This document shows, piece after piece, positions 4,348-20,012 of a DNA stretch of 24,004 bases (position 1 is the first letter of the stretch; each line of letters starts with the position of its first letter). Below the pieces are notes generated by a model that did no database searches, was not told where the DNA came from, and saw only the letters and a list, made by a program, of their open reading frames with translations. This stretch comes from a virus, in the IMG/VR virus record IMGVR_UViG_3300027365_000405, positions 1 through 24,004 of that record. The stretch is one strand, 5' to 3'. The position numbers and the translations under genes were made by a program.

Positions 4348-4743
4348 ATGGTTGCTTACACGATTACTGATCTCGCCAACGCTCTGGGGTTGAACACTTC
4401 TGGTTTCAGAGTCAATATCACCTCTACAGCATATGTTGGGCTGGTAGACTCGACGTTCATTATTCACCATGATAGTGGTAGCGAAGAACATGTATCCCCG
4501 AAGGATATCATTGCACGTTGTGAAGAGATCATCGGTGCAGCTCATGTAGTATCAGATAGCGAGCTGTTTGACCTGTGCCAGAGCAAGACAGATTCTGTGC
4601 TCGATGAGGATACCTTCTTCGAAATGGATTTAGGTGGTGATCCTGTTGCTACCATGAATGACTGGATGGTAATGAATGACGTTGAATTGATCGTAACACG
4701 CTGTGTTGAAAAGGATGATACTGTGAGCTGGGAGGTAGCATGA
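4348..4743 (+). CDS. Unknown acidic phage protein
   Basis: The product is 131 residues. The N-terminal YTITDLANALGLNTSGFRV resembles a short helix-turn-helix-like segment, followed by beta strands (STFIIHHDSGSEEHVSPKDIIARC) and an acidic C-terminal half with several Met/Asp pairs. I do not recognise the family. An excellent GAGGAGG ribosome site lies in the right arm of the P2 inverted repeat, so translation is probably conditional on where the transcript starts. Its stop overlaps the denV ATG by 4 nt, so it is the lead gene of a repair/deazapurine operon. Confidence 0.75.
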   Translation: MVAYTITDLANALGLNTSGFRVNITSTAYVGLVDSTFIIHHDSGSEEHVSPKDIIARCEEIIGAAHVVSDSELFDLCQSKTDSVLDEDTFFEMDLGGDPVATMNDWMVMNDVELIVTRCVEKDDTVSWEVA

Positions 4744-5186
4744 CTCGTATCAACACTATTGATGTACAGGATCTTCTTGATCAGCACTTGATGGCTGAAT
4801 ACCGTGAACTTCCTATGGTGGCAGGATCGCTTCGGCGGTCCTTGAAGTCAAAACGAGGTGTAACAGGTATACCCGATCAATACACACTCAATCAAGGACA
4901 TGTTAAGTTTTTCTATAACAAGAAGCTGTACCTTCAACAGCGCTATCGTGAGCTTCTTGTAGAGCTGATATCTCGTGAATATCAGCTAGATCCTACCCGA
5001 CGGCCCGACTTCGATACATTCAACGCTATACCCAATGTCAAGTGGACTCCCACCAGCGACGACCATAAAATACTAATCTCACGTCTCATCGAACGTGTGC
5101 GTCAACGTCCTGATTTCTATCGAATGAGAGGCAAACGCGTTGACGTCGAAGAGTATATTCAACACCTACAGGAGAAGTATCTATAA
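4740..5186 (+). CDS. denV: Pyrimidine-dimer DNA glycosylase/AP lyase (endonuclease V)
   Basis: The product is 148 residues, close to T4 DenV (138). The N-terminus MTRIN and the helix DQHLMAEYRELP (14-25) align directly with T4 endonuclease V, including the nucleophilic N-terminal Thr2 amine, Arg3, Arg22 and Glu23. GHVKFFYNKKLYL and RQRPDFYRMRGK match later conserved blocks. The enzyme cleaves the glycosylic bond of UV-induced pyrimidine dimers and nicks the abasic site, repairing phage DNA in the cytoplasm. Residue 26, an arginine in T4 DenV, is methionine here, and the aromatic C-terminal tail is replaced by a longer charged helix. It overlaps the upstream gene by 4 nt and queE by 1 nt (TAATG), so all three are one operon from P2. 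Confidence 0.93.
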   Translation: MTRINTIDVQDLLDQHLMAEYRELPMVAGSLRRSLKSKRGVTGIPDQYTLNQGHVKFFYNKKLYLQQRYRELLVELISREYQLDPTRRPDFDTFNAIPNVKWTPTSDDHKILISRLIERVRQRPDFYRMRGKRVDVEEYIQHLQEKYL

Positions 5187-6058
5187 TGCTATACAGTGAA
5201 ACATTTAAGAGCATCCAGGGCGAGGGCATCTATACCGGCTACCCTTCCATCTGGCTTCGCACCTATCTTTGCAACTTCGAATGCTCTGGTTTTTCGCAGC
5301 CCGATCCAGCTGACCCATCAACATACCATGATGTAGGTGCTGATGTTGATCTCATCAACGTACAAGACATCACTGATTTACCTGTATTCAAATATGGGTG
5401 TGATAGCGCATACTCCTGGAGCAAGAAGTTCCGTCATCTTCAGCATGAGGAAACCGCTGAGGAGATTGTACAGCGTCTGGGGGATTATCTTCCTGAGCCG
5501 GGCGTATGGCATAACAGTGATTATGAGTTTCATATGGTGTTTACTGGTGGTGAACCTCTGCTAAAGCGAACTCAGAAAGATATCGTGAAGCTTATGCAAG
5601 CGTGGTCTCAAATGCCGTACGGTCAGCGCCCTCGCTATATCACGTTTGAAACAAACGGAACTCAGAAGATCATCCCTGAACTAGCCGAAGAGCTGAATGC
5701 TGACTGGGTAGAAGAAGTCCTGCTATCTTATTCACCTAAACTGCTACACGTATCCGGCGAGAGTAACAAACGAGCCATCAAGCCGGAGACGATTCATCAT
5801 AACATTCGTGTGCTGCGGAATGTACGATTTTCATTGAAGTTTGTGGTGAATTCTGACCCACGGGCATGGGATGAGCTCGACTGGGCGATTGATGAAATTG
5901 GCCTTGGCAAGAAGCCGGTCTGGATCATGCCGGTAGGTGGTCGCGTCGAAGATCAAGAAGCCACAGCAGGTGATGTAGCGGATATGGCCATCGCTCGTGG
6001 CTTCAAGGTGTCAGCCCGCGTGCATGCATATCTTTGGGGAAATTCTGTAGGGAAGTAG
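5186..6058 (+). CDS. queE: 7-carboxy-7-deazaguanine synthase, radical SAM
   Basis: The product is 290 residues, longer than cellular QueE (about 210-230). It begins with the diagnostic SETFKSIQGEG(I)YTGYPSIWLR, and has the radical-SAM GGEP (121-124) and FETNGT. It converts 6-carboxy-tetrahydropterin to 7-carboxy-7-deazaguanine using SAM and a 4Fe-4S cluster, the third step towards preQ0. The cluster motif is unusual: Cys29 and Cys33 have normal CX3C spacing, but the expected third cysteine (residue 36) is Phe; the likely replacement is Cys72 in KYGCDSAYSW, after a 36-residue insertion. It is translated by TAATG coupling to denV and is about 3 kb from folE and over 6 kb from queC and queD, all in the same window. 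Identity is strong; the cluster ligation is inferred. Confidence 0.93.
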   Translation: MLYSETFKSIQGEGIYTGYPSIWLRTYLCNFECSGFSQPDPADPSTYHDVGADVDLINVQDITDLPVFKYGCDSAYSWSKKFRHLQHEETAEEIVQRLGDYLPEPGVWHNSDYEFHMVFTGGEPLLKRTQKDIVKLMQAWSQMPYGQRPRYITFETNGTQKIIPELAEELNADWVEEVLLSYSPKLLHVSGESNKRAIKPETIHHNIRVLRNVRFSLKFVVNSDPRAWDELDWAIDEIGLGKKPVWIMPVGGRVEDQEATAGDVADMAIARGFKVSARVHAYLWGNSVGK

Positions 6059-6087: not shown

Positions 6088-7347
6088 AGTTACGATAAAT
6101 TTGTAGATTTATCTAAACGCTTCACCGAGGTTGCTAGATGAGCATCAATCTTCTCGCCTAGTCTTATATCCTCTCCACGTTTGTAATCGACCAACTCGGC
6201 CGATACTTCATTTAAGGGCTGTCCAGTTAAATCTGAATAACCCTTAAATAAAATATTTTTAGCAGCATTAAGGTCTCTGTCATGATGAACCTCGCAAGAA
6301 GAACAAGACCACTCACGAACTGATAGATCTTTCTTTCCGTCTCTGTGACCACAACTAGAACAAATCTGACTACTAGGATAGAATCTGTCAATCTTGACAA
6401 AGCTCTTTCCATACCACTTGCTTTTATATTCTAGCTGTCTAACAAACTCACTCCATCCAACATCAGACACAGACTTAGCTAGATTTCCCTTCTTCAAACC
6501 AGTAACATTTAAGTCTTCAGTGGCAATAACATCAAACCCTCTCACAAGAGTTGTTGTCATGCAATGGAGGAAGTGTTTTCGCTGATTAGAGATTCTCTCA
6601 TGAACGCGAGCAACTTTTATGCGCTGTTTTTCATACCGCTTGCTACCTTTCTGTTTTCTTGAAAGGTGTTTCTGTTCCCTAGCAAGTTTCGCTTGGCTCT
6701 TACGATACCATCTAGGGTTGCTAACTACATCTCCGTTCGAAAGTGTGAATAAATCTTTCAAACCAAGATCAATGCCGACTGACTTTCCTGTCATAGGAAG
6801 CAAATCAACATTGATCTTGACTAGAATAGAAACAAAGAACTTCCCTGTAGGAGTCTTTGATATTGTTACAGATCGATAGTCGGCATCTTCAGGTATATCT
6901 CGATCGATCGCTGCATGTACATGGCCAATTTTCTCGAGACGAATAGTACTAGAATTTTGATCCAATTTGAACTTTTGATTAGGAAGCCGATATGATTGGC
7001 GTCCTTGTTTCTTTTTGAACGACATTCTTCCTAATCGCACTTTCCGTCTCTTATTGAAAAACTGTCTCTTTGTCTCAGAGAAATCCATTCTCTTCTGTTG
7101 AAGTGCCGCAGCGGAGACATCTTTCAACCAAGGAAAACGACTATCCTCCTTGATAGTCTTTTCTGACATTTTGGGGTTGAATGAAGAAGAACCATAAGAA
7201 TTGAAATTCTCAACAAGCTGATTCCACACAACACGAACACACCCAAAAGTCTGATTCAACTTTTCTTGTTGATCATCCGTCGGGTAAATTCGGAACTTAT
7301 AAGCTTTGAGGATTTCGTTTTTCATAAATCTATTTATTATGTGTTCC
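6088..7347 (-). mobile_element. tnpB-only insertion (approximate limits)
   Basis: The element is placed between the left promoter-like sequence ending at 6087 and the duplicated promoter sequence beginning at 7348. The right limit is supported because similarity between the repeats at 7348 and 7809 stops there. Terminal palindromes typical of TnpA recognition were not identified with confidence, so the exact ends and target site remain open. Confidence 0.45.
6090..7325 (-). CDS. tnpB: TnpB-family RNA-guided nuclease (IS200/IS605 OrfB, IS1341-type)
   Basis: I start at the ATG at 7325 (411 residues), matching the usual N-terminus (MKNEILKAYKFRIYPTDDQQEKL); a GTG at 7361 would add 12 residues. 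In this numbering the RuvC-like triad is intact: Asp186 in GIDLGLKD, Glu270 in IATEDLNV, and Asp351 in HDRDLNAAKNI. A zinc finger CSSCG (322-326) and CSSC (341-344) lies between the last two, as in active TnpB. TnpB is the DNA nuclease of IS200/IS605 elements, directed by an omega RNA encoded at the 3' end of its own gene; it favours retention and spread of the element. No tnpA is present, so it could move only with help or by homing. It is the only complete minus-strand gene in the window and separates queE from the next plus-strand operon. Confidence 0.93.
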   Translation of the reverse strand: MKNEILKAYKFRIYPTDDQQEKLNQTFGCVRVVWNQLVENFNSYGSSSFNPKMSEKTIKEDSRFPWLKDVSAAALQQKRMDFSETKRQFFNKRRKVRLGRMSFKKKQGRQSYRLPNQKFKLDQNSSTIRLEKIGHVHAAIDRDIPEDADYRSVTISKTPTGKFFVSILVKINVDLLPMTGKSVGIDLGLKDLFTLSNGDVVSNPRWYRKSQAKLAREQKHLSRKQKGSKRYEKQRIKVARVHERISNQRKHFLHCMTTTLVRGFDVIATEDLNVTGLKKGNLAKSVSDVGWSEFVRQLEYKSKWYGKSFVKIDRFYPSSQICSSCGHRDGKKDLSVREWSCSSCEVHHDRDLNAAKNILFKGYSDLTGQPLNEVSAELVDYKRGEDIRLGEKIDAHLATSVKRLDKSTNLS

Positions 7348-7380
7348 GGGGTTGCCATCACCGCAGAAAGATGCTATAAT
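7348..7380 (+). promoter_or_regulatory. Sigma70-type promoter P3 (repeat copy 1)
   Basis: TTGCCA (7352-7357), 17 bp, TATAAT (7375-7380), with a TGC extended -10. The 33-nt block from GGGG to TATAAT is repeated at 7809-7841 with one difference. It lies 168 nt upstream of the gene at 7493, in tandem with P4, and just upstream (divergent) of tnpB. Confidence 0.85.
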
Positions 7381-8636: not shown

Positions 8637-8924
8637 ATGAAATCACTACGCCAGTTTATTACTGAAGCCACTAAGTACATGTCCATGGACATCTACAATG
8701 GCGACAAAATGCTCAAGACATCACGAGTCATGATCAATCAAACACGCATGGGTCGTACAGATATGAGCATCGTCGACTCTATCAAGTACGACGGCAAGGA
8801 ATATCTCAAAACAAGCCGCACAGCTCGTCTGCTGCATCACGATCAAAAGGGAACTGAATTCAAGGCCGATGATGGAGATATTCTATACGTGACAGACGAT
8901 CTATCGAAAATTGTGTTTGACTAA
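8637..8924 (+). CDS. Unknown small phage protein
   Basis: The product is 95 residues. It starts MKSLRQFITEA, an N-terminal pattern common in small T4-like phage proteins, and continues with a beta-rich body (MDIYNGDKMLKTSRVMI; DGKEYLKTSRTARLLH; DGDILYVTDDLSKIVF) in which KMLKTSR and EYLKTSR look like a degenerate internal repeat. No membrane segment or catalytic motif is visible. AGGAG precedes the ATG. Its 3' end overlaps the -35 box of the folE promoter. Confidence 0.7.
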   Translation: MKSLRQFITEATKYMSMDIYNGDKMLKTSRVMINQTRMGRTDMSIVDSIKYDGKEYLKTSRTARLLHHDQKGTEFKADDGDILYVTDDLSKIVFD

Positions 8925-8945
8925 TCTTAATAAACACGTTATAAT
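8917..8945 (+). promoter_or_regulatory. Sigma70-type promoter P6 for folE
   Basis: TTGACT (8917-8922), 17 bp, TATAAT (8940-8945): one of the best consensus matches in the window. Expected start near 8952, giving a leader of about 115 nt. The -35 overlaps the stop of the preceding gene. Confidence 0.88.
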
Positions 8946-8951
8946 GTAAAC

Positions 8952-9066
8952 TCTTTACAACAGAGTGTTCCGTTGGTTGTCATTGCTTGCGATGTTTTCA
9001 ACGGCCAAGTGTAACGTAGCCCTTGCTCTCTTCCGCTACGAAATCTAAACATGAAGAGGAAATTCA
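8952..9066 (+). promoter_or_regulatory. Structured folE 5' leader
   Basis: Three nested or sequential stems are visible: ACTCT/AGAGT at the start, CCGTTG/CAACGG around a loop of about 23 nt, and CGTAGC/GCTACG around a loop of 14 nt. The ribosome site AGAGGAA is just outside the last stem. The length is unusual for this compact genome, so post-transcriptional control of folE is possible. It does not match the preQ1 riboswitch patterns I know. Confidence 0.35.
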
Positions 9067-9747
9067 ATGAGCAACAAAAACGATCCTAAGCTAGGCCAGG
9101 AAGTAAAACAGTATCTCATCAGCATGGGCGTAGAAAGCCCCGTCGACTACGATGTATACTGCAGCACCACTAGCCAAGAAAAGGTAGACCTCATTACCGA
9201 TCGAATGACTGACATTCTACAGACAATCGGTTTTGACCTATCTAATCCTTCAGTAGAAGATACACCTAAACGCGTCGCAAAGATGTGGGTTAACGAGGTC
9301 ATGACTGGTCTTGACTATGATAATTTTCCACGTATCATGACATTCCCTAATGAGTTTAATACGACTGGGATGGTGGTCGAACGTGGCGTGACGAGTATGT
9401 CTCTATGCTCTCATCACCTTGTTACTATTGACGGTACCGCGACTATTGCGTATATCCCCAAAGACAAAGTACCCGGTATCTCGAAGATTGCACGCGTAGT
9501 AGATTTCTTCTCGCGTCGTCCTCAGGAGGCTGAACGGCTTACTCTTCAAATCTACTATGCACTGCAATACGTGCTAGAGACTGACGACATTGCAGTATTC
9601 CTCGACGGTGTTCACTACTGCATGAAGTCACGGGGTGTGAAGGATGCTAACGCTTCTACTTCTACAGTGAAGCTTGGCGGGGACTTCCTCAATGACCCAG
9701 CTGTACGACAGGAGTTCTATGGAATCGTAAACTCATCTACTAAGTGA
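9067..9747 (+). CDS. folE: GTP cyclohydrolase I
   Basis: The product is 226 residues, about the family length (E. coli 222). DTPKRVAKMW (65-74), SLCSHHLVTIDG (112-123), YIPKDKVPGISKIARVVDFF, RPQEAERLT and GVHYCMKSRGV are all classic FolE-I blocks. Zinc ligands are expected to be Cys114, His117 and Cys185, with catalytic His116 and His183. It converts GTP to 7,8-dihydroneopterin triphosphate, the entry step to both folate and 7-deazaguanine synthesis. With QueD, QueE and QueC present in the window, the deazaguanine role is clearly the intended one. It is a single gene behind promoter P6, with the dpdA promoter immediately downstream, so precursor supply can be controlled apart from the rest of the pathway. 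Confidence 0.96.
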   Translation: MSNKNDPKLGQEVKQYLISMGVESPVDYDVYCSTTSQEKVDLITDRMTDILQTIGFDLSNPSVEDTPKRVAKMWVNEVMTGLDYDNFPRIMTFPNEFNTTGMVVERGVTSMSLCSHHLVTIDGTATIAYIPKDKVPGISKIARVVDFFSRRPQEAERLTLQIYYALQYVLETDDIAVFLDGVHYCMKSRGVKDANASTSTVKLGGDFLNDPAVRQEFYGIVNSSTK

Positions 9748-9756
9748 TTAGGTAAG

Positions 9757-9795
9757 TAGTACAGATAGGGGCTGTTCCATATAATGGCAGCCCCT
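9757..9795 (+). promoter_or_regulatory. Promoter P7 inside an inverted repeat (dpdA operon)
   Basis: TATAAT (9780-9785) lies in the loop of AGGGGCTG (9767-9774)/CAGCCCCT (9788-9795), an 8-bp stem with a 13-nt loop. The -35 position 17 bp upstream is TAGTAC (9757-9762), which is weak, so an activator or another sigma contact may be needed. The hairpin may also end the folE transcript. Confidence 0.6.
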
Positions 9796-9818
9796 TCATT
9801 ATCTATAGAGGATATGAC

Positions 9819-10595
9819 ATGAAGACAGCACATGAAGCGCCCCTTTCCATCTTTGATATGGTAAGCGACCTCACTGATTATGATTATGCTCTGGTACACC
9901 TGTTTGAAGAAAATCCAGGGTATCTGGCTAAGTTTGAAGAAAAGCGCGATCAAGGCCGCGAGATCATTCTAGATAACTCTATTTTCGAGCTAGGAGAATC
10001 ATTCGACTCCGAACGCTTTGCTCATTGGGTTCGTCATCTCAAACCCACCTGGTATATCATTCCCGATGCACTAGAGAAGAAAGATGATACTATCGCTAAA
10101 CTCGATGATTTTCAATCTCGCTTTCCTGATCTGCCTGGTCAATCCATTGGCGTGGCGCAAGGTAAATCATATGATGAGATGGTAGAATGCTACCAGTATG
10201 TTGCACCTCGAGTGGACAAGGTAGCGATTTCATTCGACTATAGCTTCTTCGTAGATTGGTTTCCTAACGAGAAGACGAAGTATCACGCGTACATGAAAGG
10301 TCGTCAACGACTGATTCAACAGATGATCGACGACGGTGTTATTCGTTTTGATCAACCACACCATCTACTAGGCTGCGGCCTACCTCAGGAATTTAAAGCG
10401 TATAAGGATTATCATTGGATCGATAGTATGGACTCTAGTAATCCTGTAGTACATGGACTGCTGGGTATTCCGTATACCGAGGAAGGACTTGAGGATAAAT
10501 CATCCATCAAGCTATTCACTCTGGTCGACGATGAAGTAGACAATATCGATCTGATTCGCTATAATATTAACAAATTCCGAGAGTTCGTATCATGA
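9819..10595 (+). CDS. dpdA: DNA 7-deazaguanine transglycosylase, phage DpdA family
   Basis: The product is 258 residues, a compact TGT-like TIM-barrel protein. Conserved elements are LDNSIFELGESFD (51-63) with candidate catalytic Asp52, YIIPDAL (79-85), IGVAQG (110-115, matching the VQG strand of tRNA-guanine transglycosylases), HLLGCGLPQEF (182-192) and DSMDSSNPV (202-210) with a candidate second catalytic Asp. DpdA enzymes exchange guanine in DNA for a preformed 7-deazaguanine base, making the phage genome refractory to restriction. The start has GAGGA upstream and a dedicated promoter. The next gene overlaps by 4 nt. It heads an eight-gene operon containing queF, queC and queD. DpdA subfamily and sequence context of the exchange cannot be told by eye. 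Confidence 0.87.
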   Translation: MKTAHEAPLSIFDMVSDLTDYDYALVHLFEENPGYLAKFEEKRDQGREIILDNSIFELGESFDSERFAHWVRHLKPTWYIIPDALEKKDDTIAKLDDFQSRFPDLPGQSIGVAQGKSYDEMVECYQYVAPRVDKVAISFDYSFFVDWFPNEKTKYHAYMKGRQRLIQQMIDDGVIRFDQPHHLLGCGLPQEFKAYKDYHWIDSMDSSNPVVHGLLGIPYTEEGLEDKSSIKLFTLVDDEVDNIDLIRYNINKFREFVS

Positions 10596-11086
10596 TATGG
10601 ATCGCTTTATATTCACAGACAGGGTCAGAACTTCAAACGATCACAGAGCGGCTGGGGAGAGATCCTGATCTGGTGTTGACAAACAACAAACAGGCGCGCT
10701 TTGGGTTGATTTACGATCACCAGACTATCGAAGATACTCTTATGTCGATTGATGATAAATGCATCATCACACTGCACGGATATCTTCGGATTCTATCACC
10801 GCGTGTTTGTAGTAAGCATTATATCATTAACGGACATCCGGGACCGATTCATCTCTATCCAGAACTGAAAGGAAAAGATCCTCAGGTTCGTTGGTTTGAG
10901 AATCGCGATCAATATGATGTCATGGGTGCCGTTCTCCATGAGGTGATACCTGAGGTAGACGAAGGTCGAATTCTCAGCACTTTCACGTCTTCTTATAAGC
11001 CTGATAATATTGATGATGTGTTTAAGGCTCTAAAAAACATGTCGTTCGACATGTGGTGTAATTTACTAAGGGAGGAGCTACGTTGA
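10592..11086 (+). CDS. PurN-like formyltransferase, candidate dPreQ1 formyltransferase (DpdN)
   Basis: The product is 164 residues, somewhat shorter than PurN (about 210). The formyltransferase active site is intact: Asn80 and His82 in IINGHPGPIHLYPEL correspond to PurN Asn106/His108, and Asp123 in LHEVIPEVDEGRIL matches Asp144, with His116 seven residues before it just as in PurN. LKGKDPQ replaces the usual KYPG loop. GART-type enzymes transfer a formyl group from 10-formyl-tetrahydrofolate to an amine. It overlaps dpdA by ATGA and sits with QueF, which makes the aminomethyl group of preQ1. The best inference is therefore formylation of dPreQ1 in DNA (or of preQ1), the activity proposed for phage DpdN enzymes. 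Acting in purine synthesis is less likely given the context. Confidence 0.78.
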   Translation: MIWIALYSQTGSELQTITERLGRDPDLVLTNNKQARFGLIYDHQTIEDTLMSIDDKCIITLHGYLRILSPRVCSKHYIINGHPGPIHLYPELKGKDPQVRWFENRDQYDVMGAVLHEVIPEVDEGRILSTFTSSYKPDNIDDVFKALKNMSFDMWCNLLREELR

Positions 11087-11601
11087 AGATTGGTCTGCTG
11101 GGTGCACAAGGAACTGGGAAGACAACGCTGCTCGAGAGCGTGCACGGTTATCTACCCGAGTACGAAAAGTGCACAGAAGTGACTCGCTGGGTGAAGAGTC
11201 TAGGTGTTGATATCAATGAAGGCGGATCAGATCTATCACAACAACTGGTATTGATGAAACACCTAGAGAACTTATTCCTGCATGATTATATGATTACTGA
11301 TCGTACTTTGATTGACGGATACGTATATACGTGGTGGTTGAACAAACAGGGTCAGGTATCAGATAATATGGTGCACAAGACAGAAGACGCCATGCATCGA
11401 CTGCTTCATCACTATGATTTGCTGTTTTATCTTCCTATTGAATTTGACGTGGTAGACGATGGGGTACGCTCTATTGACAATACATTCCGTAATGAGATCG
11501 ACGCTAAGTTTCAGATAGTAGTGGAGACCTTTCAAATCCCCTCGCTCTGCGGTTCTATCGACCAACGAGTATCAGCACTACTAACTCACTTTGACCCTTG
11601 A
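11083..11601 (+). CDS. P-loop NTPase/kinase-like protein (AAA_28/NadR-like)
   Basis: The start is TTG 11083, overlapping the previous stop as TTGA, with a very strong GGGAGGAG seven bases upstream. The 172-residue product begins directly with a Walker A motif GAQGTGKTTL (7-16). DYMITDRTLIDGYVY (67-82) gives the Walker B/DR region typical of nucleoside or nucleotide kinase-like P-loop proteins, and LLFYLPIEFDVVDDGVRS resembles the kinase strand before the lid. AAA_28/NadR-type proteins phosphorylate nicotinamide riboside or related small molecules. Lying between the formyltransferase and queF in one operon, it may phosphorylate a pathway intermediate or a further DNA-modification moiety; that is inference. 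It could alternatively be a general dNMP kinase. Confidence 0.78.
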   Translation: MKIGLLGAQGTGKTTLLESVHGYLPEYEKCTEVTRWVKSLGVDINEGGSDLSQQLVLMKHLENLFLHDYMITDRTLIDGYVYTWWLNKQGQVSDNMVHKTEDAMHRLLHHYDLLFYLPIEFDVVDDGVRSIDNTFRNEIDAKFQIVVETFQIPSLCGSIDQRVSALLTHFDP

Positions 11602-11621
11602 GAGACAGGAGCTCTGAAAGA

Positions 11622-12539
11622 ATGACCAACATTAACGACATTGCCGGTCGGCACCTAGGCAAAGCTGGTGACGGTAGCACAGTAAAACCCTACGTCACAC
11701 CAGATAACGTAGACCCTGATCTGCTAGTAGGAGTTCCTCGCTCTTACAACCGCACTGACTACAACATCGAAGAAGATAATCTACCATTTATCGGTTTCGA
11801 TGTTTGGAACGGATACGAATTCTCCTGTCTTCTCGACAACGGATATCCAGTATCTGGTGTCGTGCGTGTTGTATATCCGGCGAACACCCCTAACATCGTC
11901 GAATCGAAATCCATCAAACTCTACCTAAACTCGTTTAACATGGCTCGAATGGGTAAAACGATTGAAGAGGCGGTAGAGCGAGTAGAAGGCAACATCACTC
12001 AAGATCTTACTGAGTGTGTGGGTGGCCAACCAGATGTTACTCTTCATCTTACCACCAGCCCTTCTAGAAGCTATGTATCTCCTCTTGATGGTGATTACGA
12101 TGTACTTGAGAGCATGGTAGATGTGGAGAATATTGAGTTCACCGCATACAATGAAACACCTGATACGCTACAAGTGGTAGACGGTCATACTCACGATCGA
12201 ATTCAATCCAGCAGTCTGCGTTCTAACTGTCGTATTACCAATCAACCTGATTGGGGTGATATCTTTATCGTCTACACGGCAGATAAAGGAGTCACTAACG
12301 AGTCGCTTCTGCAGTATATCGTATCCATGCGTAAGGAGAATCACTTCCACGAAGAGATTTGTGAGTGTGTGTATAAGCGGCTATACGACTTGCTTGATCC
12401 GGTTGAGCTCATGGTAGCATGTCTATACACTCGACGTGGTGGGATTGACATTAACCCAGTACGAGCCACTCACGACCATCTGCTCACCCACCCCATGCTC
12501 AATAGCAAACTGCTAGTAGATAAAACTATTCGTCAATAA
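11622..12539 (+). CDS. queF: NADPH-dependent 7-cyano-7-deazaguanine reductase, two-domain type
   Basis: I choose ATG 11622 (305 residues) because the N-terminus then matches bimodular QueF (IAGRHLGKAG ... LLVGVPRSYNR); a TTG at 11598 would overlap the preceding gene. The family fingerprint ESKSIKLYLNSFN, the catalytic SNCRITNQPDWG (Cys followed seven residues later by Asp, as Cys190/Asp197 in E. coli), FHEEICE and YTRRGGIDINP are all present, at full length. QueF reduces the nitrile of preQ0 to the primary amine preQ1 with two NADPH. In the operon it lies just upstream of queC, whose product it consumes. Its presence strongly suggests the modified base is preQ1-derived. Confidence 0.96.
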   Translation: MTNINDIAGRHLGKAGDGSTVKPYVTPDNVDPDLLVGVPRSYNRTDYNIEEDNLPFIGFDVWNGYEFSCLLDNGYPVSGVVRVVYPANTPNIVESKSIKLYLNSFNMARMGKTIEEAVERVEGNITQDLTECVGGQPDVTLHLTTSPSRSYVSPLDGDYDVLESMVDVENIEFTAYNETPDTLQVVDGHTHDRIQSSSLRSNCRITNQPDWGDIFIVYTADKGVTNESLLQYIVSMRKENHFHEEICECVYKRLYDLLDPVELMVACLYTRRGGIDINPVRATHDHLLTHPMLNSKLLVDKTIRQ

Positions 12540-12548
12540 GAGGGATAT

Positions 12549-13292
12549 ATGGACCTTCAACAAGCCATTGATACACTACCTGATACTTCTCAACCCGTAG
12601 TAGTAACTCATAGCGGAGGAATGGACTCCTCCGCTGGAGTCATTCTCGCTGTTGAGAAGTATGGCGCCGAAAACGTGATCTCTGTTGGATTTAACTACGG
12701 GCAGAAACAAGTAGTAGAGCTAGAACGAGCTCAAGAACTGTGTAATATTCTGGGAGTAGAGCGACACGTTCTCGATCTTGACGTGTTGAGTGATATTGCA
12801 CGTCCAGTATCGGCTAACATTCAATCCTCTACCATTGATATGCCGTCGATTGAGGATGTGCTAGGCGACCCTCAGCCTAAAACAGAAGTTCCGTTTCGAA
12901 ATATGATTCTATTTTCGTTGACTGCGGCTCTTGCTGAGGCTCGAGGGGCATCACATATCATCTGCGGTCTGCAGGTACATGATGCATACGCGTATTGGGA
13001 TACTACTCAAGCGTTCGTAGATGCCATCAATCATACATTTCATCAGAATCGCAAACATCCTATTACTCTAGTGGCGCCGTTTGGCCATCTATCGAAGACA
13101 GAGGAGCTATCTCTTGTAGATCAAGCCGGTAAAATGTATCTCATGAGTCGCACTCTTACTTGCTACAATCCAGATGAGAAGCATCGATCTTGTGGGCGGT
13201 GCCCTTCTTGTTCAGAGAGAATCATGGCGTTTATGAATATGGGTATGCGCGATCCCATTGAATACCAAGTAGACATTCCCTGGAGCGAATGA
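12549..13292 (+). CDS. queC: 7-cyano-7-deazaguanine (preQ0) synthase
   Basis: The product is 247 residues, slightly longer than cellular QueC (about 220-231). It has the PP-loop ATP pyrophosphatase motif SGGMDSSAG (22-30), the FNYGQKQVVELERA block, VPFRNMILFSLTAALAEARGA, and the C-terminal zinc site CYNPDEKHRSCGRCPSC with four cysteines. It converts 7-carboxy-7-deazaguanine plus ammonia and two ATP to preQ0. GAGGG precedes the ATG. The next gene, a class II glutamine amidotransferase, begins four bases after the stop, which recalls the fused Gat-QueC proteins of some phages and archaea. Confidence 0.96.
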   Translation: MDLQQAIDTLPDTSQPVVVTHSGGMDSSAGVILAVEKYGAENVISVGFNYGQKQVVELERAQELCNILGVERHVLDLDVLSDIARPVSANIQSSTIDMPSIEDVLGDPQPKTEVPFRNMILFSLTAALAEARGASHIICGLQVHDAYAYWDTTQAFVDAINHTFHQNRKHPITLVAPFGHLSKTEELSLVDQAGKMYLMSRTLTCYNPDEKHRSCGRCPSCSERIMAFMNMGMRDPIEYQVDIPWSE

Positions 13293-13295
13293 TAT

Positions 13296-13904
13296 ATGTG
13301 CGCTATTTTCGGTAGTATGGATGTAGGGGAGTTTCGGCTCCTCGCATCACTCAACCAATATCGCGGCTCTCATAGTTACTCTATTGCCGAGTATCGAGAC
13401 GGTGATATTCGGTTGAAAGAACAGCAACTAGGCACCAGTCATTTCGTGGTAGAAGGCAAAGGACTTCATATCGGTCATGTGCAGGCGCCTACAACATCTG
13501 ATCGTGATATTAGCAACATTCATCCTTGTCAAATGAACGGTAATATGCTATGGCATAACGGCATCATCAAAGATAAACAAGTAGCACAATGGCGAGGTGA
13601 ATCGGAAGATATTGCCTGGGACACTTACTGGCTCATGAAGAACCTCGAAGAGCGAGGATGGGGCGTTTTATCTGAAACTGACGGAGCATTTGCCTGCCTT
13701 TACTTCTATCAAGGTGAGCTGTATTTGTTTCGCAATCACAACTGCCCTATGTTTCTCAAAGAGTCGACTTTTTCTTCTACGCGTTTCGATAAGAGCTCGC
13801 CTATTAAATCAGGTGTAGTATATAAGTACGATGGAAGCGCATTTGCGTCTACTGATATCACGTTTAACACCAATCAACCTTACTTCTTCAGTCTCAACTC
13901 ATAA
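13296..13904 (+). CDS. Stand-alone class II glutamine amidotransferase domain
   Basis: The product is 202 residues. The Ntn-type catalytic cysteine is Cys2 (MCAIFGS), and the other conserved elements are present: YRGSHSYSIAEY (22-33, counterpart of RGxDSxGI), GHVQAPT (60-66), WHNGI (86-90, oxyanion Asn/Gly) and TDGAFACLYF (128-137). It would release ammonia from glutamine for a partner enzyme; it has no synthase domain. It begins four bases after queC. In Gat-QueC fusions this domain is joined to a QueC domain and enables conversion of preQ0 to the formamidine G+. Here the domains are separate genes, so it may partner QueC either to feed nitrile formation or to make a G+-like base. The assignment to the amidotransferase superfamily is firm; the partner is inferred. 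Confidence 0.85.
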   Translation: MCAIFGSMDVGEFRLLASLNQYRGSHSYSIAEYRDGDIRLKEQQLGTSHFVVEGKGLHIGHVQAPTTSDRDISNIHPCQMNGNMLWHNGIIKDKQVAQWRGESEDIAWDTYWLMKNLEERGWGVLSETDGAFACLYFYQGELYLFRNHNCPMFLKESTFSSTRFDKSSPIKSGVVYKYDGSAFASTDITFNTNQPYFFSLNS

Positions 13905-13913
13905 GGATATAGA

Positions 13914-14405
13914 ATGATTCATATTGCATCTCATCTCACTCAATCTGAACTTACCAATATTCTAGAAGGTGATGTTCAACCTAATGCTGTTGATCTGCGC
14001 GTGGCTAAAGTGATGCGCATTAATAACGACCCCTTTATCATTGATGAAGAACGGAAAGTTCATCGCGGATCGGTAGAGGTAGAAGTGAACGAGGACGGCT
14101 ATTGGGAACTGGAACCAGGCTCGTACGAAATTGTCATGGATAACGCCGTCAAGGTAGGAGTTGGTGAATCGGGTTTCGTCATCACACGCTCTACCCTCAA
14201 TCGAAACGGAGTGTACATCACCACCGGTCTATATGATTCTGGCTATCATGGGATGATGGCTGCTGCCTTGCACGTTCAGCGTGGTGTAGCCTATATTAAG
14301 CCGGGTACTCGTGTGGGTCAGTATCTGTGCTTTGAATCAGAGACTCTCAGTGAGTATGATGGTGATTACGGTTTCAACAAAGAACACGATCAAAAATACG
14401 TTTAA
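13914..14405 (+). CDS. dUTPase/dCTP deaminase-superfamily nucleotide hydrolase
   Basis: The product is 163 residues. Trimeric dUTPase/Dcd motifs are seen in order: PNAVDLRVAKV (23-33, motif I), FVITRSTLNRNGV (88-100, motif II), TTGLYDSGYHGMM (103-115, motif III) and PGTRVGQYLCF (130-140, motif IV). The catalytic-loop Asp108 in DSGY fits dUTPase; the Glu typical of dCTP deaminase after motif III is not obvious. No classical glycine-rich motif V is present, though YDGDYGF may replace it. Such enzymes hydrolyse dUTP (or deaminate dCTP), keeping uracil out of DNA. It is embedded between the amidotransferase and queD in the deazaguanine operon, so action on a modified dNTP cannot be excluded. Confidence 0.8.
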   Translation: MIHIASHLTQSELTNILEGDVQPNAVDLRVAKVMRINNDPFIIDEERKVHRGSVEVEVNEDGYWELEPGSYEIVMDNAVKVGVGESGFVITRSTLNRNGVYITTGLYDSGYHGMMAAALHVQRGVAYIKPGTRVGQYLCFESETLSEYDGDYGFNKEHDQKYV

Positions 14406-14415
14406 GGAATAGCTA

Positions 14416-14997
14416 ATGGGAATCAAGATTAAATCTACCAAGTCTTTTTATCATATGCCTGTAGCTCATGCGCAGTATCATGATATGACACCCGAGCGTA
14501 CACCAGGGGCGTGTGCGGCGATCCACGGATATGATCGCTCAGTTCATCTTACATTTGCTGGCGAGGTAGATGATCACGGGTGGATCTATCCATTCGGTGA
14601 CCTCAAACCGGTTAAGGAATTTCTAGAATACTATTTCGATCATACCCTGGTATTACCAGCCGATGACCCGAGGCTAGAGAATATCCCAGTAGAGATGATG
14701 GAGTGTGGTCAGCTGCTCGGTGAGATGCGCATTCTGCCTTATGGCGTCTCCATGGAGATGAGTTCGCTATTCGCCTGGGAGTATATTAATCCCTATATCT
14801 ACCACACTACAGGCGGTCGTGTATATCTAGAGAAGATTGAATTTCGTGAGCATGAGAAGAACTCAGCTTTTCTAGAGGTCGATGAGGAGACGGCGAAGAA
14901 GCAAGCTGAGCGGTATCGTTCAGATGCCGATCTGCTGGTGAAGGTGATCATGCATGCACATCAACCACCCAAGGATGCGCTGGCACAATACAGTTGA
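14416..14997 (+). CDS. queD: 6-carboxy-5,6,7,8-tetrahydropterin synthase-like protein
   Basis: The product is 193 residues, longer than cellular QueD (about 120-140). The recognised core runs SFYHMPVAHAQ (10-20), GACAAIHGYDRSVHLTFAGE (31-50), GWIYPFGDLKPVKEFLEYYFDHTLVL (55-80), with Cys33 as the catalytic thiol and Asp75-His76 as the catalytic pair. QueD makes 6-carboxy-tetrahydropterin from dihydroneopterin triphosphate, feeding QueE. The zinc-binding HGH is HGY here (His37, Tyr39), so the third zinc ligand differs; His18 and His37 are kept. The C-terminal third is an extra helical extension. It is the last gene of the dpdA operon and its stop overlaps the next promoter. Identity is strong, metal site unusual. 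Confidence 0.87.
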   Translation: MGIKIKSTKSFYHMPVAHAQYHDMTPERTPGACAAIHGYDRSVHLTFAGEVDDHGWIYPFGDLKPVKEFLEYYFDHTLVLPADDPRLENIPVEMMECGQLLGEMRILPYGVSMEMSSLFAWEYINPYIYHTTGGRVYLEKIEFREHEKNSAFLEVDEETAKKQAERYRSDADLLVKVIMHAHQPPKDALAQYS

Positions 14998-15665: not shown

Positions 15666-16991
15666 ATGTCTGATTTCTTTTATACGTATTATCGGCGTCA
15701 TGGGAATAAGATTCTCATGCGTTATGTTAAGAACGGCAAGGCTAAGAATCGAGTGATCGACTTCTATGAGCCCACCTTATACGTCGATACAGCAGAAGAC
15801 AGTGATATTACTAACATCTACGATCAGCGCGTTAAACCAGTGTCGTTTGACTCGATGAAGCAAGCTGACTCATTTGCCGAGCAGTACAAAGACGTGGATG
15901 GAATGAACGTATATGGCAACAACGATTATACCAATCAGTTCATCATTGAGTTGTTTGATGGTGATACACCAAACTTTAACGCCGATCAAATCAAGATTGG
16001 TTATATCGATATCGAGGTCCACGCAGAGACCTTTCCTGATCCAGAGGAGCATCGCTGGCCGGTGAATGCGATCACTGTCTATAACTCTACCAGAAAGCAG
16101 TATATTACATGGGGTTTGGAGCACGGTGAATCATATTCACAGGAGAACCAGCACGAGAAGGTTCAGTCGCTGAATGTGGATTATCGTCCGTTTAGTGATG
16201 AAAAAGATATGCTGCGTGATTTTCTTCTTCACATGAATCAAGAAGAGTATCACATCACTACAGGATGGAACTCAGAGTTATTCGATTGGCCGTACCTCAT
16301 CAATCGGTGCTATCGTCTTTTCGGTGAAGCATATACTAAGAAGATGCTATCACCATTTAACATGATTCAGCGTACAGAAGTTTCTGGTGCGTTTGGTGGC
16401 AAGCCAAAAACGAAATACAAAGTGGTAGGGGTGCCAGATCTAGACTATATGGCACTATACAAGAAGCACGTATTCGTGCCACGTGAATCATATAGACTAG
16501 ATTTCATCGCAGAGGCTGAACTAGACGAACGCAAATTGGACTACTCTGAGTACGGTGGTCTAGACACCTTGTACTTAGATAATTACCAGTTGTTCATTGA
16601 CTACAACATCATCGACGTAGATCTTATCCGTCGTCTAGACGAAAAGCTCGGCCTGTTCAATCAAACATACGCGCTAGCTTACTACGCACTCACCAACTAC
16701 GAAGACACTCTCGGCACAGTGCGTATATGGGAGCACTTGATCGCCAAGTTTCTATACAAGCAAGGGCAGGTGCCGCTGTACTTTGGCATCAGGGGTGTAG
16801 ATCGATCCTTTCAGGGTGCATATGTGAAGGAACCGCGACCAGGGATGTATGAGTGGGTGGTAAGTTGTGATCTTAATTCACTATACCCTCACATCGAAAT
16901 CCAGTATAATATAGGACCCGAAACCCATCTAAATATTGATTCAGTAGAACAGAGAGCCCTCGATGAAATCAATCGCAGACTTAAAGAATGA
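15666..16991 (+). CDS. 43A: DNA polymerase gp43, N-terminal cistron (exonuclease and palm start)
   Basis: The product is 441 residues and corresponds to the N-terminal half of T4 gp43. Exo I is GYIDIEVHAETFPDP (Asp115, Glu117; T4 Asp112/Glu114), Exo II GWNSELFDWPYL (Asp207) and Exo III YNIIDVDLIRRLDEK (Asp317). The palm begins and polymerase motif A is SCDLNSLYPHI (Asp402). The reading frame then leaves polymerase similarity after GPETHLNIDSVEQR (about residue 430) and ends with nine residues and a stop read inside the homing-endonuclease insertion. Motifs B and C are in the separate cistron at 18678. The two proteins must assemble to give an active replicase. AAGGAG precedes the ATG. Confidence 0.94.
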   Translation: MSDFFYTYYRRHGNKILMRYVKNGKAKNRVIDFYEPTLYVDTAEDSDITNIYDQRVKPVSFDSMKQADSFAEQYKDVDGMNVYGNNDYTNQFIIELFDGDTPNFNADQIKIGYIDIEVHAETFPDPEEHRWPVNAITVYNSTRKQYITWGLEHGESYSQENQHEKVQSLNVDYRPFSDEKDMLRDFLLHMNQEEYHITTGWNSELFDWPYLINRCYRLFGEAYTKKMLSPFNMIQRTEVSGAFGGKPKTKYKVVGVPDLDYMALYKKHVFVPRESYRLDFIAEAELDERKLDYSEYGGLDTLYLDNYQLFIDYNIIDVDLIRRLDEKLGLFNQTYALAYYALTNYEDTLGTVRIWEHLIAKFLYKQGQVPLYFGIRGVDRSFQGAYVKEPRPGMYEWVVSCDLNSLYPHIEIQYNIGPETHLNIDSVEQRALDEINRRLKE

Positions 16992-18699
16992 AGTATTAGA
17001 CACGAATATTATTAGATCTGACGGGAAAGTAAACTCTAATATAATACGACATCTAGACAATCATCCTCGTATTAAGAGCATTGTACGCGATATACACAAC
17101 TACTATAACGCGCCAGGCGACTTAAAGTCTAGCTATTTGATAGTGCTCTGTATAAATGGTTATAAATCTCTACCAACATGCTCGGAATGCTCTGCGGTAC
17201 TAACGCATAAGGCCATACGAAATGTAAGCCCTATTGTTATATCCAGCTACTGCAGCCATAAGTGCGCAGGCACGAGTCAAAAACGAAAAGACAAACGAGC
17301 GACAACATTCGTGGAGCGGTATGGCGTAGAATATCCAAGCCAGCGAGAATCTTTTAAAGATTCTATGAACACTCCTGAGATGAGGAAGAAGAAAGCCGAC
17401 GCTATGCACTCATACTATAACAATTTGAGGTCGAGCGGGGCGTTCGATGACGAGATGGGGAAGCGAAACGAGAAGAGAAGGTCTACCGCCATAGAAAAAT
17501 ACGGTTCGTACGACGAATATATTGAGACGCGGGTTACATCATATAAGAATAACAACGATATGGAAGATGTTAACAGTCGACGCTCTGCATCGATTCGCGA
17601 TACTATTATTAAGCGATACGGCTCCTATAAAAGTCTACAAAAGCATAAGAAGCCGTATACTAACCCCAACTACCTGCGTATGTCCTCTGACCAGGTAGAT
17701 ATACTCACCAATAGAGATTCGTTTGTTAAGGAGCTAGAAAACAGTAATGATAGCATCGAGTATATGTCTGCTCGAACAGGCCTCGCTGTGTGTACTCTGT
17801 ACCTAAAGTGCAAGCAATTTGAAATAGAGCGAAACGGAAACATATCGTATCCCCATATCCTCATAATGAACATGCTTGACGATATGAGAGTTGACTATAC
17901 TATAAACGATAGAACTATTATCACTCCATATGAAATAGACGTGATGGTGGGAGATTCGATTGGAATTGAAATTAACGGTGTGACCTGGCATAGTGACAAA
18001 GTAAGAGATAAGAATTACCACTTGATGAAAACAGAAATGGCATCAACTCGTGGAGTGCACCTAATTCACTTGACTGACGTTGAGATAATCAACAACCAGT
18101 ATAAAATCGAATCGTTCTTAGCGTCTCTGGTTAACAGTGATATCAGAGTGTTGTATGCTAGAAAGTGTAGTGTGGTTGAGATAGAATTGTCGCGCTATCG
18201 CGAACTCTGTAATATGTGGCATATGCAAGGGTACGCGTATGCCGATTGTGTGTACGGGCTCGAATATGAAGGCGAGCTGGTTCAAGTTATGTCTTTTTCT
18301 CGTTCTCGTTTCAATCAATCATATCAATACGAGCTTGTGCGTTTGTGTACAACACGCCATACAAGGGTTGTCGGAGGAGCATCGCGTCTACTGTCACGCT
18401 TTAAGAAGGAAAAATGCCCCTCTTCGATAATATCGTATTGTGATCGATCTCTTCATACAGGAAGAGTATACGAGCAGTTAGGTTTTATATATGATGGTGA
18501 TACTAATATAGGGTATCGCTATTATAAGAGCGGTAAGCTATACTCTCGCTACACCTTTCAAAAACATAAGCTCAAGGATAAATTTCCAGACATTTGGAGC
18601 GAAGACAAAACAGAATATGAAATCATGTCAGAGGCAGGATATCTAAGAATATGGGATTGCGGAAATCGGAGGTTTGTATGGAACGACAGAGACTACTAG
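16963..18699 (+). CDS. Large homing endonuclease with EDxHD/Vsr-like nuclease domain
   Basis: The product is 578 residues and occupies essentially the whole insertion in gene 43, overlapping the first polymerase cistron by 29 nt and the second by 22 nt. The N-terminal part has a zinc-finger-like CSECS...CSHKC and repeated YG motifs (ERYGVEYPSQ, EKYGSYDEY, KRYGSYKS) common to phage homing endonucleases. The nuclease core is PYEIDVMVGDSIGIEINGV (from 322) with WHS, then YHLMKTE: Glu324, Asp326, Glu336, His343 and Lys356 fit the EDxHD/Vsr-like fold of I-Bth0305I-type enzymes. A C-terminal domain (from about 395) starts LYARKCSVVEIE. The enzyme should cut gene 43 lacking the insert and drive its spread. 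Codon use (many ATA, AGA) differs from neighbours. Confidence 0.88.
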   Translation: MKSIADLKNEVLDTNIIRSDGKVNSNIIRHLDNHPRIKSIVRDIHNYYNAPGDLKSSYLIVLCINGYKSLPTCSECSAVLTHKAIRNVSPIVISSYCSHKCAGTSQKRKDKRATTFVERYGVEYPSQRESFKDSMNTPEMRKKKADAMHSYYNNLRSSGAFDDEMGKRNEKRRSTAIEKYGSYDEYIETRVTSYKNNNDMEDVNSRRSASIRDTIIKRYGSYKSLQKHKKPYTNPNYLRMSSDQVDILTNRDSFVKELENSNDSIEYMSARTGLAVCTLYLKCKQFEIERNGNISYPHILIMNMLDDMRVDYTINDRTIITPYEIDVMVGDSIGIEINGVTWHSDKVRDKNYHLMKTEMASTRGVHLIHLTDVEIINNQYKIESFLASLVNSDIRVLYARKCSVVEIELSRYRELCNMWHMQGYAYADCVYGLEYEGELVQVMSFSRSRFNQSYQYELVRLCTTRHTRVVGGASRLLSRFKKEKCPSSIISYCDRSLHTGRVYEQLGFIYDGDTNIGYRYYKSGKLYSRYTFQKHKLKDKFPDIWSEDKTEYEIMSEAGYLRIWDCGNRRFVWNDRDY

Positions 18700-20012
18700 A
18701 GATTAAGGATTACATTGAGTCGGGTCAATTTCGGATGGATCGTGAAAAGTATACTGTTGACGATATCATCAATGAGCGCTTAGATGATAGGTTTCGTCGT
18801 TGTGTGCAATTGGCTGATGCTACCATGGCAGCCAACTTCCACTTCTATCGACGCGATAAACCATCATTCTTTAGTTCTATCAAGAGCGAGCTATATAACG
18901 AACGCAAGACATACAAGAAGAAAATGCTTGAGCAAGAGCAGTTAATGGCCGATGCACCGACCAAGGAAGAGAAACGCCAATATTCGTCTGCTCAGTCACA
19001 ATACCATAATATGCAAATGGCTTTGAAGATCCTCTTGAATGGGGGATATGGAGCTCTCGCAAACAAGCACTTCCTTTACTACATGGTGGATAATGCCGAA
19101 GCTATCACTGCATCGGGTCGCCTCATCAACAAGTGGGCGGGCACTCGAGTAGATGGCTTCCTTAACAATATACTAGGCAAGGGCACCTACTGGATCTACA
19201 GTGATACGGATAGTGGGTACTTCACGCTGAAGCCTTTCGTAGAACAGGTGTTTGGTGGTGATGTAGATGATAAACAATCTGTTGTGAACGCGATCGATCA
19301 ATTTTACAAGGAGGTGCTAGGACCAAAGATTGATGATTTCGCGCAAGACATGTGCGAATATGTTAATGGTCGAGAGCAGAAGATGGTATGGGAGCGCGAG
19401 GTAATATCCGAGCGCGCTGTGTGGTTGGCGCGGAAGCGATATGTAATGACGGTGTGGGATAATGAGGGTGTTCGATACCATAAAGAGCCTAAGCTCAAAT
19501 ACATGGGCGTAGATGCTGTACGATCATCTACACCAGCTTGGTCTCGTGAAGCACTAAAAGAGTGTTATATGATTGCACTTACAGATGGTGAACGAGCTGT
19601 ACAGCAGTATATCTCTGAGGTGTATGATAACTTCCTATCCAAACGCGTTGATGAAATTGCTATTCCTACTGGCGTCAATGGTATACTAAAGTATGCTGAT
19701 GATGATAACATTTTCATTAAAGGCACACCCAAGCACGTCAAAGCAGTTCTCATTCACAATTACCTGGTAGATCAATACAACGCTAATGTCAACAAGATTA
19801 CAGACGGTAACAAAATTAAATATGTTCCGCTCAAGATGCCGAATCCTATTAAACAGGAAGTGGTAGCGTTTGAACAATTTCTCCCTAAAGAGTTTAAAGT
19901 AGACGAATACGTAGACTATGACGCTGTGTTTGAACGAGCCTTTGCCAAACCGGTAGATGCTTTTCTATCGCCTATTGGGTGGACGGCTGAAGAAACCAAC
20001 ACACTGTTTTAA
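18678..20012 (+). CDS. 43B: DNA polymerase gp43, C-terminal cistron (fingers, palm, thumb)
   Basis: I choose ATG 18678 (444 residues), six bases after GGAGG inside the endonuclease gene; an in-frame ATG at 18651 has no ribosome site and would add residues foreign to polymerases. Early residues (ERQRLLEIKDYIESGQF, then KPSFFSSIKSELYNERKTYKKKM) match the T4 region before the fingers helix. Motif B is ALKILLNGGYGALANKHF (Lys117, Asn121, Tyr124, Gly125) and motif C IYSDTDSGY (Asp176, Asp178). REVISERAVWLARKRYVM, KYMGVDAVRSSTP and a C-terminal WTAEETNTLF follow T4 gp43, the last being the likely clamp-binding tail. It is in the same frame phase as the N-terminal cistron. It supplies two of the catalytic carboxylates, the first being in 43A. 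Confidence 0.94.
   Translation: MERQRLLEIKDYIESGQFRMDREKYTVDDIINERLDDRFRRCVQLADATMAANFHFYRRDKPSFFSSIKSELYNERKTYKKKMLEQEQLMADAPTKEEKRQYSSAQSQYHNMQMALKILLNGGYGALANKHFLYYMVDNAEAITASGRLINKWAGTRVDGFLNNILGKGTYWIYSDTDSGYFTLKPFVEQVFGGDVDDKQSVVNAIDQFYKEVLGPKIDDFAQDMCEYVNGREQKMVWEREVISERAVWLARKRYVMTVWDNEGVRYHKEPKLKYMGVDAVRSSTPAWSREALKECYMIALTDGERAVQQYISEVYDNFLSKRVDEIAIPTGVNGILKYADDDNIFIKGTPKHVKAVLIHNYLVDQYNANVNKITDGNKIKYVPLKMPNPIKQEVVAFEQFLPKEFKVDEYVDYDAVFERAFAKPVDAFLSPIGWTAEETNTLF

Follow-up and report, generated by a model that had tools for sequence, protein, structure and literature searches.

The closest described systems to the locus considered here are phage DNA modification cassettes in which a DNA guanine transglycosylase, DpdA, is combined with enzymes of preQ1 metabolism. 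Cui and colleagues are said to have detected 2'-deoxy-7-(formylamino)methyl-7-deazaguanine in phage DNA in 2023 and, reportedly without proof from the enzyme, to have proposed DpdN, together with DpdA and QueF, as a dPreQ1 formyltransferase; the same work is said to have defined DpdA3 as the type that allows complete replacement, and for DpdA3 relatives replacement of all guanines has been reported. We know of no experiment in the literature that demonstrates the formylation step. Crippen and colleagues, in 2019, reportedly found the genomic DNA of Campylobacter phages with DpdA3-type proteins to be modified. Campylobacter phage genomes are reported to be highly modified by dADG, and phages Dp-1 and HVTV-1, which have QueF-type proteins, carry dPreQ1 in their DNA (PMC6884629). 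Here we analyse a cassette of this kind in IMG/VR record IMGVR_UViG_3300027365_000405, a metagenome fragment whose entire 24,004 bases are referred to below as the window. A collinear run at 9067-14997 encodes FolE, DpdA, a formyltransferase, a kinase, QueF, QueC, a glutaminase-type protein, a dCTP deaminase (DCD)-like protein and QueD; QueE stands apart at 5186-6058, and every cassette gene, QueE included, is on the plus strand. We consider it probable that the cassette makes preQ1, that DpdA inserts it into DNA and that a DpdN-type enzyme formylates its amine.

A cultured phage with the same cassette exists. Flavobacterium phage vB_FspM_immuto_2-6A (NC_055915) has, like the window, every gene of the route, with FolE, DpdA, formyltransferase, kinase and QueF in the window's order and QueD and QueE upstream, and the prediction is therefore testable now. 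Its annotated DpdA is 53.5% identical to that of the window and its formyltransferase 37.4%. It differs in that QueC lies about 16 kb away, no class II glutamine amidotransferase (GAT) or DCD gene was detected, a small open reading frame (ORF) separates DpdA from DpdN, the QueE motif is CX3CX7C, and the DNA polymerase is of family A. Other named phages share less. Vibrio phage KVP40 (L294) has the window's FolE-x-QueF-QueC-GAT order, and Pseudomonas phage pf16 (L295) has FolE, QueD, QueE, QueF, QueC and GAT, with no DpdN found in either; in both, a PHROG 10773 protein of 440-459 amino acids (440 in pf16) fills the place of DpdA, DpdN and the kinase between FolE and QueF. This protein is probably a DpdA2-type transglycosylase, and because it occupies the same slot of a similar operon, the DpdA-DpdN-kinase block, with its DpdA3-type member, looks exchangeable. 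In Campylobacter phage CP220 (Firehammervirus), as in the window, the same kinase-like gene stands directly behind a homologous DpdA, an adjacency found in Campylobacter phages, but no DpdN or QueF was detected in CP220, and its DNA is reported to carry dADG.

DpdA and the overlapping formyltransferase

Gene identities throughout are based on Pfam, PHROGs and NCBIfam matches and, like the folds, conserved catalytic residues, linkage and clade membership reported below, are results of computation. DpdA (9819-10595) is the case in which homology and fold had to stand in for family matches: the protein gave no match in Pfam or NCBIfam, its family profile gave none among PDB sequences, and the PHROG that it does match, 19058, is a family of unknown function. 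Apart from its similarity to the immuto protein, it aligns with the homologues of Campylobacter phages CP20 and CPt10 at 38.6% over 98% (E 1e-46). Its predicted structure is confident (predicted local distance difference test score, pLDDT, 96), and the best 50 Foldseek matches in the PDB are all tRNA-guanine transglycosylases (TGT). All 47 sequences compared keep D52, D83, Q114-G115 and D205 unchanged, and by order and motif we take these residues to correspond to the active site of the Z. mobilis TGT. The protein has 258 residues, against about 370 for TGT. Using DpdA3 as our presumptive subfamily label for proteins of this type, we find that the best explanation of both sequence and model is a small DpdA3-type DNA guanine transglycosylase, with DNA insertion activity predicted.

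The next gene (10592-11086) overlaps dpdA by 4 nt, at 10592-10595, an overlap that the original prediction, made from the window sequence alone, had pointed out. Taken singly, its product matches Pfam weakly (7.4e-5), and in the window's own record no PF00551 match lies above the curated cut-off, the single-sequence score falling below it; a profile of 46 relatives matches PurN at 7.3e-14. The model (pLDDT 97) has the GART fold, and its best structural matches are all PurN. N80, H82, H116 and D123 are conserved in all 46 of these diverse relatives, which bears out the earlier claim that the full GART catalytic set (Asn80, His82, Asp123) is kept. R66 and I67, retained in 45 and 41 of the 46, correspond to R90-I91 of the E. 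coli PurN folate pocket. The protein thus shares with PurN the fold, the catalytic Asn-His-Asp and the folate pocket motif. It differs in the loop that binds the phosphate of glycinamide ribonucleotide (GAR), which aligns gaplessly between E. coli PurN (SGNGSNLQ) and the window protein (SQTGSELQ): the position of PurN Asn13 is Glu13 in 46/46 relatives, which favours a substrate other than GAR. It also carries an LKGKDPQ motif absent from PurN, and scores 28.8 bits against the NCBIfam PurN model, whose cut-off is 150.1. In a tree of 107 sequences, 97 of phage type, among them those of the window and immuto, split from PurN, PurU, Fmt and ArnA with support of 100/100. A true PurN identity was rejected on the evidence of this separate clade, as well as of the change from Asn13 to Glu. 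The placement that the original prediction had named as fatal to it, inside PurN or another formyltransferase family, is not what the tree gives; the product groups instead with DpdA-linked phage enzymes. Judged by sequence and model, it is probably a DpdN-type enzyme, the comparison with the original DpdN proteins being with their description.

Linkage and distribution

Linkage was counted on viral contigs for 113 distinct DpdA proteins whose contigs continue for at least 5 kb behind the gene, a sample that leans to close relatives, being drawn from the best 80 matches of each scan. DpdN and QueF both follow DpdA in 106 of these 113; counted from the other side, 94 of 97 distinct DpdN proteins with flanking sequence are preceded by DpdA and followed by QueF. 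Of the seven exceptions on the DpdA side, four have no detected DpdN or QueF, namely one Chryseobacterium phage and three from Campylobacter; in two further contigs DpdA precedes DpdN-QueF at a distance of about 7 kb, and the seventh, L272, is a DpdA-DpdN pair described below. Absence of both from Campylobacter DpdA phages is as expected if DpdN needs preQ1. A locus with DpdA, kinase and QueF but lacking DpdN (L159, 7935-10424) looks like a natural DpdN deletion, for which unformylated dPreQ1 is therefore predicted. When the CP220 DpdA was used for a scan, only Campylobacter phages and two weak matches were found, which leaves few DpdA3 loci that lack DpdN. With its distinct clade, its linkage to DpdA and QueF, and its absence from those DpdA phages in which no QueF was found, the enzyme gives sequence support, across many phages, to the proposed formylation of preQ1 in phage DNA by a PurN derivative.

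The family is common: two wider scans gave at least 599 matching stretches, of which at least 564 were confirmed as relatives. QueE, QueD, FolE, DpdA, DpdN, QueF and QueC are all present in 84 fetched loci, representing 58 distinct DpdA proteins (window included), and nine of the 84, the window among them, have the window's exact gene order. A self-sufficient, complete route is ordinary in environmental phages, and the cassette belongs to an already known type. The original prediction had supposed that a partial route is the norm in phages and had valued the window for its completeness; the 84 loci, the complete set in immuto_2-6A and the whole preQ1 pathway of pf16 contradict the one and leave the other unsupported. 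As a separate observation, a DpdN relative in a Microcoleus metagenome-assembled genome (L273, 5563-8540) stands beside DegT-type aminotransferase, phosphoribosyltransferase-like and thymidylate-kinase-like genes, the neighbour families having been read from sequence.

Proposed chemistry and its alternatives

In the chemistry that we favour, FolE, QueD, QueE and QueC would convert GTP to preQ0, QueF would reduce preQ0 to preQ1, and DpdA would exchange guanine in DNA for preQ1. The DpdN-type enzyme, with 10-formyl-tetrahydrofolate, would formylate the aminomethyl group, before or after insertion of the base, to give 2'-deoxy-7-(formylamino)methyl-7-deazaguanine. The modified base would presumably protect against host restriction enzymes, and extensive guanine replacement in the window phage is possible by analogy with the reported behaviour of DpdA3 relatives. 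Several points weigh against this scheme. It is gene linkage that suggests preQ1 or dPreQ1 as what the formyltransferase acts on. The glutaminase-type gene adjoining QueC could point to archaeosine (dG+). One DpdA-DpdN pair (L272) is accompanied by no que gene of the families searched in the searched pieces of its 20.9-kb contig, and the Microcoleus DpdN relative has no DpdA within 8 kb. The window QueD lacks one canonical zinc histidine and the QueE motif is split, both of which look like family features. On balance, formyl-dPreQ1, the product originally predicted, is the best-supported explanation and has come through the tree test; what did not survive is the judgement of exceptional completeness that came with it.

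It is unlikely that the DNA carries dPreQ1, or a mixture, while the formyltransferase acts on some other amine such as GAR or a nucleotide sugar. That the nearest solved structures are PurN, that cyanophage P-SSM7 has a true PurN with no DpdA nearby, and that the Microcoleus relative (L273) adjoins an aminotransferase and a phosphoribosyltransferase would all fit such a role, but the fully supported clade apart from PurN, the Glu in the GAR phosphate loop and the DpdA and QueF linkage of nearly all distinct DpdN proteins argue against it, and no further purine gene was found within the cassette. The main chemical rival, owing to the glutaminase-type gene, is dG+ as the end product of a QueC-glutaminase pair, with preQ1 a side branch. 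Fused Gat-QueC with DpdA makes dG+ in phage 9g (PMC6884629), and the window's gene, directly behind queC, encodes an intact Cys2. We nevertheless regard this outcome as distinctly improbable, since an intact two-domain QueF with catalytic and NADPH motifs would consume preQ0 and many DpdN and QueF loci have QueC with no GAT gene; the role of the QueC-glutaminase pair may be no more than the provision of ammonia for QueC.

The accessory genes raise the question of whether formyl-preQ1 is the last product. It is highly improbable that the kinase-like and the glutaminase-type protein carry the chemistry further: the kinase is found in most DpdA loci and, even in the DpdN-less Campylobacter phages, adjoins DpdA, but many cassettes keep DpdN and QueF and lack the kinase, and its homologue in Streptomyces phages lies beside terminase genes with no DpdA found. 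There is likewise a slim chance that both proteins join the chemistry in this lineage, so that its base is a further derivative beyond formyl-preQ1, possibly at every guanine. Finally, a DpdA fold that is the TGT fold might suggest action on tRNA, with the pathway serving tRNA modification. This is extremely improbable, and a tRNA-only function was rejected, given the much shorter protein and its homology to DpdA3-type proteins of Campylobacter phages, the genomic DNA of which is reported to be modified (PMC6884629 for the phages).

Genes for preQ1 synthesis

The earlier claim that FolE, QueD, QueE, QueC and QueF are all present, covering GTP to preQ1, is confirmed by family matches. FolE, GTP cyclohydrolase I (9067-9747; Pfam 1.3e-52, and above the cut-off of an NCBIfam equivalog), has an intact zinc-ligand motif, CSHH...HxC, and QueC, preQ0 synthase (12549-13292; Pfam 1.3e-50), scores above the cut-off of NCBIfam TIGR00364. 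QueF, the NADPH-dependent preQ0 reductase (11598-12539; Pfam QueF_N 4.9e-30 and QueF 1.1e-23), falls under the strict NCBIfam cut-off (239 against 293 bits), and QueF and QueF-L are hard to separate by sequence (PMC6884629). The features by which QueF was told from QueF-L here are all present: two domains, the NADPH motif E(S/L)K(S/A)xK, here conserved as ESKSxKLY, and the catalytic Cys, Asp and His (C201, D208 and H241 in alignment row numbering).

QueD and QueE depart from the canonical patterns in ways that recur among their relatives. In QueD, 6-carboxytetrahydropterin synthase-like (14416-14997; Pfam 5.9e-14, PHROG 2389 7.8e-32), the catalytic residues C30, D72-H73 and E142 are at least 95% conserved, and the zinc site reads HGY for HGH, so that the canonical three histidines (E. 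coli H16, H31, H33) are not all there. The window has Tyr at the position of H33, as have 87 of the 93 distinct QueD sequences, and the protein is classed as QueD-like. The first zinc histidine, kept in the window, is also gone in many relatives; in the immuto-type QueD (L001, 15917-16378) it is Phe, and a conserved His stands directly before the catalytic Cys. QueE, 7-carboxy-7-deazaguanine synthase (5186-6058; PHROG 2076, E 8.2e-50), has the three cysteines of the radical S-adenosylmethionine motif as C29-X3-C33-X38-C72. They are invariant in 15 relatives, one of them with the ordinary CX3CX2C. Nearly all phage family members have a spacing between the second and third cysteines of 7 or 34-46: among distinct sequences, 7 (n = 38), 38 (n = 31), 36 (n = 15), 34 (n = 15) and a few others. 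The 38-residue insertion is seen also in loci L050, L052, L063, L138, L231 and others.

Accessory and neighbouring genes

The genes listed in the original prediction are real and lie where it put them; its list omitted three members of the run. One is a P-loop nucleotide kinase-like gene with a TTG start (11083-11601; thymidylate-kinase-like, AAA_28, Pfam 1.2e-11, PHROG 2107 3.4e-28), which is unlikely to be required, because many cassettes do without it; other examples lie at L130 20819-21361 and L293 3998-4618, and the Streptomyces phage homologue mentioned above adjoins terminase genes. The second encodes a class II glutamine amidotransferase domain (GATase_6; 13296-13904), with a Pfam value of 5.2e-6 just under the curated cut-off, a PHROG 12378 match of 1.2e-36 and the Cys2 at its N-terminus; its QueF-QueC-GAT order is common to the window, KVP40 and pf16. 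The third is dCTP deaminase/dUTPase-like (13914-14405; Pfam DCD 3.2e-13). Strong family matches rule out chance ORFs as cassette genes. From dpdA through queF the end of each gene overlaps the start of the next, and a promoter-like match lies upstream of folE on the plus strand (8917-8945; TTGACT-17-TATAAT, 11 of 12 consensus positions in a scan, a match that is not evidence of function); its first base, 8917, is the start coordinate given in the original prediction.

Downstream of the cassette are genes for DNA polymerase B, a UvsX-like recombinase and a DnaB-type helicase, on the strength of which we class the phage as T4-like. The family B polymerase is spread over two ORFs (15666-16991 and 18651-20012), split by an ORF at 16963-18699 with a weak restriction-endonuclease-like match, which is probably a homing-type insertion. 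On the other side, an IS605 OrfB/TnpB-like gene (6090-7361, minus strand) separates QueE from the remaining cassette, and a pyrimidine dimer DNA glycosylase-like gene (4740-5186; Pfam 1.9e-13) lies immediately 5' of QueE.

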